The translations under genes were made by a program, and so were the position numbers. A model generated the notes under the pieces. It did no database searches. It was not told the origin of the DNA and saw only the letters and a list, made by a program, of their open reading frames with translations. From contig CAIZLD010000076.1 of assembly GCA_903933715.1 (NCBI GenBank), forward strand, positions 1 to 41,945: a DNA stretch of 41,945 bases. Reading direction: 5' to 3'. Below, piece by piece: positions 976-39,984 of the stretch (position 1 is its first letter; each line of letters starts with the position of its first letter). This DNA is from an uncultured Spartobacteria bacterium (lineage in GTDB: Bacteria > Verrucomicrobiota > Verrucomicrobiia > Chthoniobacterales > Chthoniobacteraceae).

Positions 976-2346
976 TTAGCAGAGGAATTCGCGCGGATCG
1001 GTGATTTTGCCGGTGAGCGCGGAGGCGGCGACGGTGTACGGGCTCGCCAGGAAAACCTGTGATTCTTTGTGTCCCATCCGGCCGGGGAAGTTGCGGTTGG
1101 TGGCGCTGATGCACTTGAGCGGGGTGTTCATCCGCCCAAACGTGTCCACCGGACCGCCCAAACAAGCGGCGCAACCGGGGTTTTCCGTCATGCGGACGCC
1201 CGCGCTGGTCAGGATTTCCCAAACCGATTGGCCGTCCCACTTCGTCGCCTTGAGTTCGTCCAAAACAAGTGTGGTGGAAGGCACCCCGAAGGTGTCGATC
1301 TTGACGGTCTTGCCGCGGACAACTTCCGCAAAAGCGAGGAAATCCGACGTTTTGCCGCCGGTGCACGAGCCGATGTAGGCCCGGTCGAGCGCGATGTGGC
1401 CCAGCTCCTTGGCGAGCTTGCGGACACCCGGATCGGGATGGCAGGCGACGGTCGGCTCCAGCGCGCTCAAATCGAACGTCTTGTCGTAGATGAAGCTCTG
1501 GTCGGCATCGATTTCGGCCGGCTCAAACGTGCTCTTGGTCCCGTTTTCGGCGGTGCGGGCGTTCACGTAGTCGAGCGTCTTTTGGTCGCACGGGAAAATG
1601 CCGTTCTTGCCGCCCGCTTCAATGGCCATGTTGGTGATGGTCATCCGGTCGTCCATGGAGAGGGAGCTGACGCCCGGCCCCTCAAATTGCATCGCCCGGT
1701 AGGTGGCGCCGTCGAAGCCGATTTCGCCGATCAAATGCAGGATGATATCCTTGGCCATCACGCCGCGAGGGAGCGCTCCGTCAAAAAGGAAACGCATCGT
1801 CTCGGGGACTTTGATGAGCAGCTTGCCGGTGCCCAGGATAAACCCGGCGTCGGTGTTGCCGATCCCGGTGGCGAACTGGTTAAATGCGCCGGACTGGCAG
1901 GTGTGGGAGTCGGTCCCAAAGAGGATTTCGCCGGGCCGGTTATGGCCTTTCTGGGCGAGGGTGGAGTGGCAGACGCCGCTGAAGTTCCGCCCAAACTGCC
2001 GCTGGCCGTTGCCTTTGGCCGTGTCAAAGCGCCATTGCCCCTTCGGGTCGTCAATGACGTCGTAGAAATATTCGATCCCCTGTTCGTTGGCGAAGTCGCG
2101 CAAAATATCGACGTTGCGATTGGACATCGCGTCGGCGGTGAAAATGTAATGATCGGGGATGATGACCACCTTTTTGCGATCCCAAATCCTGGCGTTTTTG
2201 CCAAATTCGCGCTTGAAAACGCCAATGGTGCCCGGGCCGCAGACGTCGTGAGTCATGAGGACATCGACGTTGACCCAGACGTTGTCTCCGGGGCGCACGT
2301 GCGTCTTTCCGCTGGCGCGGGCAAGGATCTTTTCGGTCAAAGTCAT
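976..2346 (-). CDS. leuC: 3-isopropylmalate dehydratase large subunit
   Basis: Large, [4Fe-4S]-binding subunit of isopropylmalate isomerase (aconitase superfamily), 456 residues. Cluster-ligand cysteines are visible in IGSCTGGKTSDF (about residues 325-336) and NPGCAACLGG (about 388-397). The substrate-side motif DSHTCQSGAFN lies near residue 146. GSCTGGKTSD, rather than the GSCTNGR of classical LeuC, together with the overall length, points to the archaeal-type LeuC/homoaconitase-like clade. An alternative homoaconitase (lysine pathway) role cannot be fully excluded from sequence alone. It is the first gene of a leuC-leuD pair and is transcribed divergently from the HIT gene across a 182-base spacer. 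No convincing Shine-Dalgarno precedes the ATG. Confidence 0.93.
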   Translation of the reverse strand: MTLTEKILARASGKTHVRPGDNVWVNVDVLMTHDVCGPGTIGVFKREFGKNARIWDRKKVVIIPDHYIFTADAMSNRNVDILRDFANEQGIEYFYDVIDDPKGQWRFDTAKGNGQRQFGRNFSGVCHSTLAQKGHNRPGEILFGTDSHTCQSGAFNQFATGIGNTDAGFILGTGKLLIKVPETMRFLFDGALPRGVMAKDIILHLIGEIGFDGATYRAMQFEGPGVSSLSMDDRMTITNMAIEAGGKNGIFPCDQKTLDYVNARTAENGTKSTFEPAEIDADQSFIYDKTFDLSALEPTVACHPDPGVRKLAKELGHIALDRAYIGSCTGGKTSDFLAFAEVVRGKTVKIDTFGVPSTTLVLDELKATKWDGQSVWEILTSAGVRMTENPGCAACLGGPVDTFGRMNTPLKCISATNRNFPGRMGHKESQVFLASPYTVAASALTGKITDPREFLC

Positions 2347-36198: not shown

Positions 36199-36564
36199 AT
36201 GTTTCAAATCGTCTTTAACGAAATCAGCGCCGCCGAGATGTCCGCTCTCCCCAAAGAGCTTCAACTGGAATTGCTCATGGAATTCCAATTGCTTCCCGAA
36301 GACCTCGACACCCTCGACAAGGAGCGGTTTGGAAAAATGGAGCGGGAGGGCCGGGCGCTCTACCGCTGCCGCGCCAAGGATCACCGCATTTATTTCGAAA
36401 AAGCCGCCGAAGGGATCACCATCCAGCGCGTCCTGCACAAGAACACGATTCGCGATTTTCTCTTCCGGGCCAAGCTGCCAATGGGAGAGGAAGACCAGAC
36501 GTTGAGCAAAAAACCGGGGTTCTGGCAACTCATCGAGGAGGGGGAACGCAGCCGCAAAAAATGA
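36199..36564 (+). CDS. RelE/ParE-like toxin-fold protein, no antitoxin seen
   Basis: Small 121-residue protein whose pattern resembles the RelE fold: a helical start ([20 protein letters not shown]), then a basic strand pair [17 protein letters not shown] and [15 protein letters not shown], which parallels the R.R.GdYRi.y...........v.HR...Y of RelE proteins. A C-terminal extension of about 25 residues ([20 protein letters not shown]) is unusual. No antitoxin gene lies beside it: alr is upstream and a tiny membrane protein overlaps its stop (ATGA). It may be a domesticated or housekeeping relative rather than a toxin. Confidence 0.55.
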
Positions 36565-36800
36565 CACCAGGCTGGATCAAATGGATGATTGCCGGGGTGG
36601 TCCTGGCGCATCTGGGCGCTTTCTACCTGGTCTCCGGCTGGAACGCGCTCCCAAAGGCAGCCTACGTCCCGCCGCCCACGTTCGTTGCCAAAGAGACAAG
36701 CTGGACCGACCAGGCCACCGGCGAAACGCTGACCTACCGGGAGTTCCAGGTGAGCACCAAACTGGCCAAGCTCCAACAAGACGCTCCCAAGGAAAAATAA
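36561..36800 (+). CDS. small single-span membrane protein
   Basis: Protein of 79 residues, with one N-terminal hydrophobic helix (WIKWMIAGVVLAHLGAFYLV, residues 5-24) and a hydrophilic tail rich in Lys and Thr (FVAKETSWTDQATGETLTYR). Its ATG overlaps the RelE-like stop by four bases, which argues it is really translated and co-expressed. The family is not recognised. N-in/C-out topology is not obvious from charges. Followed by a palindromic repeat and then folP. Confidence 0.72.
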   Translation: MTPGWIKWMIAGVVLAHLGAFYLVSGWNALPKAAYVPPPTFVAKETSWTDQATGETLTYREFQVSTKLAKLQQDAPKEK

Positions 36801-36848: not shown

Positions 36849-37694
36849 ATGCTCTGGCAAACCAAGCACCGCACTTTTGATTTCAGCTTGGGCGGGGTCA
36901 TTATGGGGATCTTGAACCTGACGCTCGATTCGTTCTCTGATGGCGGCCGGTTTTTCAACCCCGACGCGGCCATCGCCCACGCCCTCCAGATGGATGCCGA
37001 CGGAGCCGGGATCATCGACATCGGCGGCGAATCAACCCGCCCCGGGGCGGTCCCGGTTTCACAAGCCGAAGAGCTGGCCCGCGTGATCCCGATCATCGAA
37101 GCCCTCTCGGGGCGCGTAAAGGCGGTGATTTCCGTCGATACCTCCAAAGCCGCCGTGGCTCGCGCGGCGGTCGAGGCCGGGGCCGGGATCATCAACGACG
37201 TGACGGCGTTGCAGGGAGACCCTGCCATGATGCAAGTGGCCGCCGAAAGCGGGGCGGGGGTGATCCTGATGCACATGCAGGGGACACCCCGGACGATGCA
37301 AGCCGCCCCCCATTACGGCGATGTCGTCGCCGAGGTTCGGGATTTTTTTAGACAAAGCGCCGCGCTCGCCCTACGCTCCGGGATTGACCCGCTGCGAATC
37401 GCCTTTGATCCCGGTCCCGGTTTTGGCAAAACGATGGAACACAATTTGAAGCTCCTGCGCCATTTGAGCGAATTGTGCCCTTCGGAACTGCCGGATCGCC
37501 CGATGGTGTGGGCGGTTTCGCGTAAGAATTTTTTGGGAAAACTGATCGACGACATGACGCTCATTCAACGTTTCTGGCCCACCGTAGCCCTCACGAGCCT
37601 TGGCCGTGAGCTGGGGGCCGCCGTGTTCCGGGTCCATGACGTCAAAGCCAACCGGGAGGCGCTCACGATGACCGAGGCGATCTTGAACGCATGA
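36849..37694 (+). CDS. folP: dihydropteroate synthase
   Basis: DHPS joins 4-aminobenzoate to dihydropterin pyrophosphate in folate synthesis. The 281-residue protein has the pterin/loop-1 signature as VIMGILNLTLDSFSDGGRFF (usually NVTPDSFSDGG, so Leu replaces Pro here), then IIDIGGESTRPGAVPVS, SVDTSK, GIINDVTAL, VILMHMQGTPRTM, AFDPGPGFGKTMEHN and the C-terminal VSRKNFLG. All other catalytic blocks look intact. The stop overlaps the cdaA start (ATGA), so folP and cdaA are co-translated. The Pro-to-Leu change lies in the loop that meets the pABA/sulfonamide site. Confidence 0.95.
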   Translation: MLWQTKHRTFDFSLGGVIMGILNLTLDSFSDGGRFFNPDAAIAHALQMDADGAGIIDIGGESTRPGAVPVSQAEELARVIPIIEALSGRVKAVISVDTSKAAVARAAVEAGAGIINDVTALQGDPAMMQVAAESGAGVILMHMQGTPRTMQAAPHYGDVVAEVRDFFRQSAALALRSGIDPLRIAFDPGPGFGKTMEHNLKLLRHLSELCPSELPDRPMVWAVSRKNFLGKLIDDMTLIQRFWPTVALTSLGRELGAAVFRVHDVKANREALTMTEAILNA

Positions 37695-38578
37695 CCGCGC
37701 TCCTCGCTTTTTCCCTGCTCGATTTGATCGGGGCGACGTGGCGCTCCGGGGTGGAGATCGCGATCCTCTGGGTCGTTATTTACTACAGCTATCTTTACTT
37801 CCGCGGAACGCGCGGAGCCAAGGTGCTCACCGGGTTGCTCGTGATCCTGCTGACCCTCACGCTCGTCTCGCAACTGCTCAAATTGCAGGTCATTTACTGG
37901 TTGATCCGCTCGTTCACCGCCTTTTTGGTGGTGGCGCTGGTGGTGATTTTTCAACCCGAGCTGCGCCGCGCCCTGGCCGCCTTGGGGAGCCAGCATATTT
38001 TCTCCACCGCGACGCAAAAAAAGGAAACGATCGAGGAACTTGCCGAAGCCACTTTTGAGCTTTCCAACCGGCAACTCGGCGCGTTGATCGCCCTGGAACG
38101 GGACACGAACGTCCACGCTTTCGCCGAAAGCGGCGTCCTGATCGACAGCGAGGTTTCCCCCGAACTGATCGTCACCATTTTCCACCCGCGAACGCCGTTG
38201 CACGACGGCGGGCTTATTCTGCGCAGCGACCGGATTCTCGCGGCGGCCTGCATTTTCCCCGTCAGCCAACGGCACGACCTCGACCGCAACCTGGGATTGC
38301 GACACCGGGCGGGCCTCGGGATCACCGAGGAAAGCGACGCCATTGCCATTGTGGTAAGCGAGGAAACCGGGAATGTTTCGATTTGTCATCGGGGCCGGAT
38401 CGAACGCGATTTCGACCCCGATACGTTCAAGAAACGCCTGGGCCAACTCCTGTTACTCGAAAAATATGAAGAACCTGATTCTACAGAACTGGGAGGCGAA
38501 GCTCATGGCGCTCTTGGCCGCGAGCATCCTGTGGTTTCTCATAAAAAAGACGATCGATACGACCTCGATGAACCCTAG
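37691..38578 (+). CDS. cdaA: diadenylate cyclase CdaA
   Basis: Membrane-bound diadenylate cyclase that makes c-di-AMP from two ATP. The 295-residue protein has about three N-terminal membrane helices (VEIAILWVVIYYSYLYF, VLTGLLVILLTLTLVSQLLK, WLIRSFTAFLVVALVVIF) and a DAC domain with LHDGGLILR (DGG, near residue 172) and LGLRHRAGLG (RHR, near residue 204), both needed for catalysis. The last ~35 residues, beyond the DAC domain, overlap a separate 46-codon frame for a CdaR-like microprotein. glmM begins 14 bases after its stop, preserving the cdaA-(cdaR)-glmM order known from Firmicutes. Confidence 0.95.
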   Translation: MTALLAFSLLDLIGATWRSGVEIAILWVVIYYSYLYFRGTRGAKVLTGLLVILLTLTLVSQLLKLQVIYWLIRSFTAFLVVALVVIFQPELRRALAALGSQHIFSTATQKKETIEELAEATFELSNRQLGALIALERDTNVHAFAESGVLIDSEVSPELIVTIFHPRTPLHDGGLILRSDRILAAACIFPVSQRHDLDRNLGLRHRAGLGITEESDAIAIVVSEETGNVSICHRGRIERDFDPDTFKKRLGQLLLLEKYEEPDSTELGGEAHGALGREHPVVSHKKDDRYDLDEP

Positions 38579-38606
38579 CAACCCACCTTCTCATGTCCTG
38601 CGATAA
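38466..38606 (+). CDS. CdaR/YbbR-like single-span microprotein
   Basis: A 46-codon frame overlapping the 3' end of cdaA by 113 bases and the start of glmM by 14 bases. It encodes MKNLILQNWEAKLMALLAAS, then a hydrophobic ILWFLIKK, then a short polar tail. The pattern N-W-x-x-K-L-x-A-L-L-x-A-x-x-L-W-x-x-I is that of the N-terminal membrane anchor of CdaR (YbbR-domain proteins), which in Firmicutes lies exactly between cdaA and glmM and modulates CdaA. No YbbR repeat domain follows. The position, frame and motif argue that it is real, but there is no Shine-Dalgarno and expression is unproven. Confidence 0.7.
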   Translation: MKNLILQNWEAKLMALLAASILWFLIKKTIDTTSMNPSNPPSHVLR

Positions 38607-39984
38607 CCATATCCGTAAACTTTTTGGAACCGACGGCGTCCGCGGCATTGCCAATGTGGAACCGGTCACCGCCGAAACCGCACTGAAGCTGGGCCGGGCC
38701 GCCGCCCATATTTTTGCCCGCGTGAACCGGCGCCCCCACGCGCCCGGCACCCGTCCCAAAATCGTTATCGGCAAGGACACCCGCATTTCCGGCTACATGC
38801 TCGAAAACGCGCTGGTCGCCGGGATTACCTCGCTTGGGGTGGACGTGTTGCTCATCGGGCCGCTGCCCACCCCCGGCGTCGCCTACATCACCCGTTCGTT
38901 GCGGGCCGACGCCGGGATCGTCCTGAGCGCCTCGCACAACCCGTACGAAGACAATGGGATCAAATTTTTCCGGCACGACGGCTACAAACTCGACGACGAA
39001 ATCGAGGCCCGCATCGAGAACCTCGTATTTAGCGGGGAGATCGAGTCGATCCGGCCCACCGCCGATAATATCGGCCGCGCCACCCGCATCGACGACGCCC
39101 TGGGTCGCTACATCGAGTTTGCCAAGGCGAGCTTCCCGCGCGGACTGACGCTCGAAGGGGTTTCGATCGCGCTCGATTGCGCCAACGGGGCCGCCTACAA
39201 ATCCTCGCCATGCATTTTGCGGGAACTCGGCGCGGAACTCCACATCGCCCACAACTCCCCCAACGGCCGCAACATCAACGCAAATTGCGGCAGCACGCAC
39301 CCGGAGGAGATCTCCGCTTTTGTCAAAAAAACCGGCGCGCAAATCGGCATCAGCCATGACGGGGATGCGGACCGCCTCGTGCTTTGCGACGAGAACGGCG
39401 AGGTTGTGGACGGCGACGAGATTATGGCGATTGCCGCCATCGACCTTCTCCAATCCGGCAGCCTCGCCCAGAACACCCTGGTCTCAACGGTGATGAGCAA
39501 TTTCGGGCTCGATGAAGCGCTGGAGCCTTTCGGCGGCAAAGTGATTCGCACCCAAGTGGGCGACCGCTATGTCCTCGAAGAGATGATGCGCGGCGGCTAC
39601 AACGTCGGCGGCGAACAAAGCGGGCATATGATTTTCGGCGACTTTGCCACGACCGGCGATGGCATTGTGAGCGCCCTTCAAATCCTGCGTATCATGGTGC
39701 AAACCGGCAAACCGCTCAGCGAATTGAAGCGCTGCCTGGTCAAATATCCGCAAGCCCAACGCAATTTGAAGGTGTGCGAAAAAAGGCCCATCGAGGCGAT
39801 TCCGCAGGTTGCCGAACTCGTGGCGGCGGCGGAAGCCTCGCTCAACGGGGCGGGCCGCGTGCTGCTGCGCTATTCCGGCACCGAACCGAAAATCCGGCTC
39901 TTGATCGAAGGCCGGGACGGCGAGGAAATCAACCGTCACGCCGACTGCATCATCCGCAGGATTGCCGAGGAAATCGGCGCCTGA
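38593..39984 (+). CDS. glmM: phosphoglucosamine mutase
   Basis: GlmM converts glucosamine 6-phosphate to glucosamine 1-phosphate for UDP-GlcNAc and peptidoglycan. The 463-residue protein starts with KLFGTDGVRGIANVEPVTAE. It has the phosphoserine loop IVLSASHNPYEDNGIKFF (active Ser near residue 114), the metal-binding ISHDGDADRLVL near residue 255, the sugar-specificity loop GGEQSGHMIF near 338 and the phosphate-binding RYSGTEPKIRLLIEG near 429. It is co-oriented with cdaA. In Firmicutes CdaA, CdaR and GlmM interact physically, and the same gene order is kept here. Confidence 0.97.
   Translation: MSCDNHIRKLFGTDGVRGIANVEPVTAETALKLGRAAAHIFARVNRRPHAPGTRPKIVIGKDTRISGYMLENALVAGITSLGVDVLLIGPLPTPGVAYITRSLRADAGIVLSASHNPYEDNGIKFFRHDGYKLDDEIEARIENLVFSGEIESIRPTADNIGRATRIDDALGRYIEFAKASFPRGLTLEGVSIALDCANGAAYKSSPCILRELGAELHIAHNSPNGRNINANCGSTHPEEISAFVKKTGAQIGISHDGDADRLVLCDENGEVVDGDEIMAIAAIDLLQSGSLAQNTLVSTVMSNFGLDEALEPFGGKVIRTQVGDRYVLEEMMRGGYNVGGEQSGHMIFGDFATTGDGIVSALQILRIMVQTGKPLSELKRCLVKYPQAQRNLKVCEKRPIEAIPQVAELVAAAEASLNGAGRVLLRYSGTEPKIRLLIEGRDGEEINRHADCIIRRIAEEIGA

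Follow-up and report, generated by a model that had tools for sequence, protein, structure and literature searches.

An anchor-only, CdaR-like small protein encoded between cdaA and glmM in Verrucomicrobiota

The cdaA-glmM junction and selection on the small frame

The window, that is, the whole 41,945-nt stretch of DNA analysed here, from an uncultured Spartobacteria bacterium (order Chthoniobacterales, family Chthoniobacteraceae), carries a cdaA gene and a glmM gene separated by a short open reading frame (ORF) that overlaps both. The following features were assigned at this junction.

37691..38578, + strand: cdaA, membrane-bound diadenylate cyclase, 295 aa (TIGR00159, 231.9 bits against a cut-off of 188.8; PF02457; PF19293)
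38466..38606, + strand: putative 46-aa anchor-only CdaR-like protein (ORF, conservation, pN/pS, profile homology)
38466..38578, + strand: double-coding overlap, 113 nt, with the small-ORF frame constrained and the cdaA frame a passenger (pN/pS, codon-position diversity)
38484..38546, + strand: conserved anchor segment QNWEAKLMALLAASILWFLIK, residues 7-27 of the small protein (alignment of 26 members)
38593..39984, + strand: glmM, phosphoglucosamine mutase (TIGR01455, 593.9 bits)

The frame at 38466-38606 translates into 46 amino acids followed by a stop (MKNLILQNWEAKLMALLAASILWFLIKKTIDTTSMNPSNPPSHVLR). The ORF begins inside cdaA, 113 nt upstream of the end of that gene and out of frame with it, and overprints approximately the last 37 cdaA codons; its own end overlaps the start of glmM (38593) over 14 nt. 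The neighbouring CdaA contains both the DAC domain and the CdaA N-terminal transmembrane domain (TIGR00159, PF02457, PF19293). Like CdaR/YbbR, the small ORF lies beside cdaA, in the order cdaA-small ORF-glmM. Pfam and NCBIfam models yielded no matches to it at E<=1, and no clear ribosome-binding site was seen by eye upstream of its ATG. A search of the source genome (97% complete) for YbbR domains (PF07949) returned no match, and the same search detected YbbR in 4 of 14 control genomes. Because the test for a YbbR domain was negative, the small protein is not classed as a YbbR-domain protein. The first-pass annotation of this DNA had placed the frame at the cdaR position, overlapping both neighbors and lacking the YbbR repeats. 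The TIGR00159 and TIGR01455 neighbors, the overlaps of 113 and 14 nt, and the lack of PF07949 in the ORF and elsewhere in the genome all agree with that description. Upstream in the window, a 121-aa ORF (36199-36564) has a sub-threshold match to ParE toxin (21.3 bits, cut-off 23), and its end is overlapped by a 79-aa ORF (36561-36800) that encodes an initial hydrophobic helix and matches no Pfam model.

CdaA is present in 37 of 38 genomes, including the source genome, and a homologous small ORF was identified at the 3' end of cdaA in all 30 of the best loci (the window and 29 relatives; 29 detected by script and L010 by reading). The overlap with cdaA is minimal in L009, L014 and L015 (-4, 1 and 4 nt) and only 17-41 nt in L023, L025 and L030, so that the conservation of the small ORF is not derived from that of cdaA. 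In alignment A1, which comprises 26 of the 30 loci (L007, L010, L021 and L028 were left out), residues K12, A19 and W23 are invariant, and the relatives retain both the start and the motif, which was the check proposed at the outset. The long overlap emphasized in the first-pass annotation is real in the window; it characterizes the window's order and certain relatives rather than the protein itself.

The two frames evolve very differently within the overlap. Among five congeneric genomes, including that of the window, pN/pS is 0.08 in the cdaA-only stretch, 3.87 in the cdaA frame of the overlap and 0.14 in the small frame; the corresponding values for family f8 (Candidatus Udaeobacter and its relatives; 16 rows) are 0.06, 1.36 and 0.13, and the addition of two f8 rows with longer starts gives 0.34, 1.31 and 0.15 (20 f8 loci were fetched, with L226 and L240 not located). 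Given that the pN/pS values of overlapping frames are mutually dependent, it is the asymmetry between the frames that counts as evidence. The mean pairwise difference at cdaA third positions among the five congeneric genomes is 0.012 in the overlap and 0.453 just upstream, and, of 283 segments of 30 codons each (four genomes), those at the extreme 3' end of cdaA have the lowest third-position diversity. When the cdaA tail was subjected to 20,000 synonymous-codon shuffles, the small frame stayed open in 14,823 of them, and none was both open and as hydrophobic as the real ORF, the value of which (1.81) served as the threshold. Thus, of the two overlapping frames, purifying selection acts on the small one and not on that of cdaA. 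The pN/pS asymmetry, together with the nearly frozen third positions of cdaA, implies that the polar tail of CdaA is a passenger. The first-pass annotation had suspected both that the small frame is overprinted on the cdaA tail and that this overprinting accounts for the odd polar tail; the low pN/pS of the small frame (0.13-0.14) and the high pN/pS of the cdaA frame (1.4-3.9) bear out the two suggestions. Judged by its conservation and the selection acting on it, 38466-38606 is a real conserved gene.

Similarity to the CdaR membrane anchor

Profile-profile comparison with hhalign links the small ORF to the N-terminal regions of CdaR. The match to the N-termini of CdaR homologs from the same class that retain a YbbR-sized part reached 97.1% (E 5.2e-11), and the match to CdaR N-termini from other classes reached 97.2% (E 3.3e-11), where the latter set consisted of 17 of 30 loci selected partly by means of the A1 profile. 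With a second CdaR set, selected without the small-ORF profile (28 of 30 loci, L038 and L041 not being caught), the match was 95.65% (E 1e-8). Controls for the small ORF gave 6.4% for the first transmembrane helix (TM1) of CdaA, 1.2% for CdaA TM2-3, and 1.5% and 6.4% for reversed profiles; the maximum over 20 comparisons with shuffled columns was 1.3%, and the highest control of all was CdaR against CdaA TM1, at 11.2%. A profile hidden Markov model (HMM) built from 26 CdaR N-termini of other classes, after removal of the misframed L034 and L040, was compared with 1,037 segments from a six-frame translation of the window; only the small ORF matched significantly (E 3.8e-6), the next best segment having an E-value of 1.3, and with this CdaR-only HMM, the small frame ranked first in all 30 loci, including the window. 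Furthermore, in some class members, the anchor is joined to a Pfam YbbR domain in a single ORF, as in G453, where the longer ORF (L062) matches YbbR with 43.9 bits. Taken together, these comparisons support homology of the small ORF to the N-terminal anchor of CdaR, in agreement with the CdaR/YbbR-type anchor that the first-pass annotation had recognized in the 46-residue frame.

The anchor and CdaA TM1 share the pattern W-x9-A-x3-[WY], and MAFFT aligned the two (columns 20-40 of alignment A3). A common origin of the anchor helix and CdaA TM1 is conceivable but weak as a proposition, with 6.4% in hhalign. Alignment A3, in which small proteins and CdaA were mixed, placed the anchors onto CdaA TM1 and was not used for prediction.

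Stepwise reduction of CdaR across the phylum

YbbR domains were detected in 133 of the 240 genomes of the phylum sample, every one of them listed as lying outside the window's class, and CdaR of these other classes is 310-356 aa long (26 correctly framed loci). Within the class sample, YbbR is encoded in 27 of 236 genomes, in open frames of 91-255 aa and one of 510 aa, and not in any of the 40 genomes that represent the window's order in that sample. We examined 59 cdaA 3' flanks of the class, 57 from outside and two from inside the window's order, hand-picked among the CdaA matches listed so as to cover families (CdaA-containing families absent from this set include f69, f76, f82, f84, f92, f94 and f95). 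An anchor ORF is present in 55 flanks: 26 encode the anchor only, in ORFs of 44-111 aa, including an in-frame fusion (L134) and an anchor located 744 nt away (L121), and 29 encode the anchor within a longer ORF of 127-229 aa (127-164 aa in all but one). Some of these 29 anchors score as low as 3.5 bits and were accepted on place and pattern, and their YbbR-sized part was scored against YbbR singly for L062, not for every ORF. The remaining four flanks, each read twice, have no recognized anchor. Of the 80 loci drawn from named records, 76 encode the anchor in an ORF of its own (43-104 aa), L241 has it fused in frame to CdaA, L304 lacks it, and two are truncated by the contig end; the script calls of a fusion in L304 (5.1 bits) and of a separate anchor in L265 (1.6 bits) were false.

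The anchor-only form (43-111 aa) is found in Chthoniobacterales, in Verrucomicrobiaceae, and in the putative Akkermansia muciniphila (G306, 50 aa) and Methylacidiphilum infernorum (G470, 44 aa). The lengths suggest a size series of CdaR: 310-356 aa in other classes, then an anchor followed by a single YbbR-sized part, mostly 127-164 aa in total, and finally the anchor by itself, 43-111 aa. A quick CdaA tree (a gene tree of 124 rows with SH-aLRT support only, and the best 30 YbbR loci as the outgroup, on a branch with a support of 72) requires at least six changes among four architecture states. In this tree, anchor-only rows form one large clade (support 98, including four rows without a recognized anchor) and the groups f67+f72 (95) and f98+f77 (93); if one YbbR domain was ancestral in the class, at least three reductions to the anchor alone would follow. 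A fourth reduction, in G549, was not counted because its cdaA looks chimeric: by eye, cdaA of this genome (L143/L203) is mostly L213-like, with an L202-like C-terminal part and an L202-type anchor gene. The domain-stripped regulator that the first-pass annotation had put forward as a new variant holds up as a reduction, and it is not peculiar to this genome but widespread in the class.

Association with CdaA and the proposed role

The anchor tracks CdaA closely. Among 197 genomes of the order, 176 encode both CdaA and the anchor, none the anchor alone, six CdaA alone and 15 neither, with anchor profile matches taken at E<=1e-3 and seven matches at E 0.08-1.7 counted as absent. Three of the six CdaA-only genomes have low-score CdaA matches (E 1e-30 to 2e-41), and the other three represent genus g27 of family f13. 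In the class, the respective counts are 129 with both, none with the anchor alone, 48 with CdaA alone and 59 with neither; a substantial share of the 48 encodes a diverged anchor that escapes the profile. In L158 and L159 of genus g27, which were read individually, CdaA is kept, the anchor is absent and glmM directly follows cdaA; hence, CdaA can be maintained without the anchor. In families f14, f17 and f68, several of the near-complete genomes listed have no TIGR00159 match at E<=1e-20.

In-frame fusions to CdaA were encountered, without a systematic search, in four lineages. Two contain only the anchor, namely, L241 (Verrucomicrobium sp. BvORR106), with the same arrangement in L134, and L338; L160 combines the anchor with a C-terminal part that has no Pfam YbbR match at E<=0.1, and L333 contains a full CdaR. 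Streptococcal CdaA-CdaR fusions, mentioned in a passage of PMC10243994, resemble L241, L338, L160 and L333 in that CdaA and the CdaR anchor are covalently joined, but differ from the set described here, where the anchor stands alone in two of the four. CdaA of family f90 (L145, L146), with a C-terminal hydrophobic helix (RVAVCLVTALVLWG...) at the place of the anchor, was not accepted as a fusion given that the similarity of the helix to the anchor falls short of significance; this helix is possibly a diverged anchor fusion.

The known counterpart is CdaR/YbbR, the regulator of CdaA (DacA), with which the small protein shares the place after cdaA and before glmM and the homologous N-terminal single-helix anchor. 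Unlike CdaR, the small protein has no YbbR domain and is 46 aa long, versus 310-356 aa in other classes of the phylum, and its gene in the window overlaps cdaA by 113 nt. According to passages in PMC10243994, the transmembrane domain of CdaR in Firmicutes binds CdaA, the binding involves transmembrane domains, and the YbbR domains lie outside the membrane; co-purification of CdaR with DacA in Streptococcus mutans is noted in PMC13289029. The effect of full CdaR is disputed: an excerpt of a Staphylococcus aureus paper mentions conflicting reports of stimulation and inhibition (PMC5207132), the sign of the effect on c-di-AMP differs between passages of PMC5207132, PMC12422730 and PMC11520302, and CdaR function is called unknown in part of PMC10243994. 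The top-ranked papers of the literature searches contained no description of an anchor-only CdaR or of CdaR in Verrucomicrobiota; papers on Listeria CdaR were outside this scope, and a prior mention is possible. Single-pass proteins of about 30-50 aa, such as AcrZ and KdpF of Escherichia coli, are accessory subunits of membrane enzymes. Unlike these, the small protein appears to be descended from a larger regulator with additional domains, and it follows the distribution of a second-messenger synthase.

We consider it very probable that the small ORF is a genuine gene and that its product is a CdaR derivative with a single N-terminal membrane helix, most likely an accessory subunit of CdaA that stabilizes the cyclase or sets its activity. 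The sequence data show that the frame is conserved and under selection as a coding frame, that it is homologous to the CdaR anchor and occurs together with CdaA, that domains were lost step by step, and that natural fusions to CdaA exist; translation in the cell, membrane insertion, binding to CdaA and an effect on c-di-AMP are parts of the proposal that we infer. The small protein would be made together with CdaA, would insert N-in/C-out, by analogy with CdaR, and most likely would pack against the transmembrane helices of CdaA, stabilizing the cyclase or setting its activity. The YbbR domains, located outside the membrane in CdaR, would be gone and the CdaA-binding part kept, so that any input through the YbbR domains would be absent. 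The simplest reading appears to be repeated loss of the outside domain in Verrucomicrobiota, with the helix that binds CdaA being retained as a subunit, and the small protein probably acts like the membrane part of CdaR. The first-pass annotation had envisaged a new variant of c-di-AMP control, a role that the small protein may have.

Alternatively, the small protein could bind CdaA and mainly serve as a scaffold that brings, for example, GlmM or envelope machinery to the cyclase, without setting its activity. The anchor gene frequently adjoins glmM, and complexes of CdaA with CdaR and with GlmM are described in a passage of PMC6171935, but the anchor is kept without an adjacent glmM in L010, L241 and L338, where the gene behind the anchor is a different one, and we regard a mainly scaffolding role as unlikely. 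In L010, the small ORF (1410-1571, minus strand) encodes 53 aa, and the gene in the place of glmM is presumably metF.

Convergence, whereby a microprotein was independently recruited as a CdaA subunit and came to look like the CdaR anchor through interface W/K residues and an LxLA helix, appears quite improbable. The match is short (38-56 columns), a lone hydrophobic helix is of low complexity, and the anchor is weakly similar to CdaA TM1 as well (6.4%); nevertheless, reversed and column-shuffled profiles and the CdaA helices did not exceed 11.2%, compared to 95-97% for CdaR, and in class members, this very anchor is joined to YbbR in a gene at the equivalent position. Even less can be said for an inert peptide whose ORF links cdaA to glmM by translational coupling through overlapping starts and stops, as the overlap with both neighbors in the window might suggest: this explanation is largely refuted by constraint at the amino-acid level and by retention of the ORF without adjacent glmM (L010), 744 nt from cdaA (L121) and fused to CdaA. 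A functionless frame, either a decaying cdaR remnant or a chance frame in the cdaA tail, is refuted despite being short, overprinted and without Pfam or NCBIfam matches, considering pN/pS of 0.13-0.14, matches at E<=1e-3 in 176 of 197 genomes of the order, none of 20,000 shuffles equaling it, and copies in L009, L014 and L015 that hardly overlap cdaA.

Here, every YbbR domain has been removed, apparently more than once, with the helix remaining under strong selection beside or fused to CdaA. Loss of YbbR with retention of the helix predicts that the helix alone acts on CdaA, a claim that can be tested with a peptide of 46-50 aa and that would show which part of the regulator matters. The anchor is likely a missing component of the c-di-AMP systems of Akkermansia, Methylacidiphilum, Chthoniobacteraceae and Udaeobacter. 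With only slightly better than even confidence, we further propose that a previously overlooked protein of some 50 residues with a single helix governs the synthesis of c-di-AMP across a large part of the class, the gut commensal Akkermansia muciniphila included; the membrane helix rather than YbbR would then be the part of CdaR essential to its action, and the YbbR domains a dispensable sensor that has disappeared on at least three occasions.

A salt bridge between the anchor lysine and a glutamate in CdaA TM1 was considered and rejected: the glutamate is nearly invariant whatever the architecture (118 of 124 rows; the rest are three Q, two D and one gap), and covariation of the two residues is unsupported, the glutamate being kept in all four CdaA rows without a recognized anchor. 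The AlphaFold2 model of the L241 fusion has a mean pLDDT of 69.6, with values of 35-46 in the anchor block, and given these low values, it supports no contact between the anchor and CdaA. In family f16 (putative Methylacidiphilum; L121, L327, L328 and L330), the anchor is kept even though it lies 136-744 nt from cdaA.
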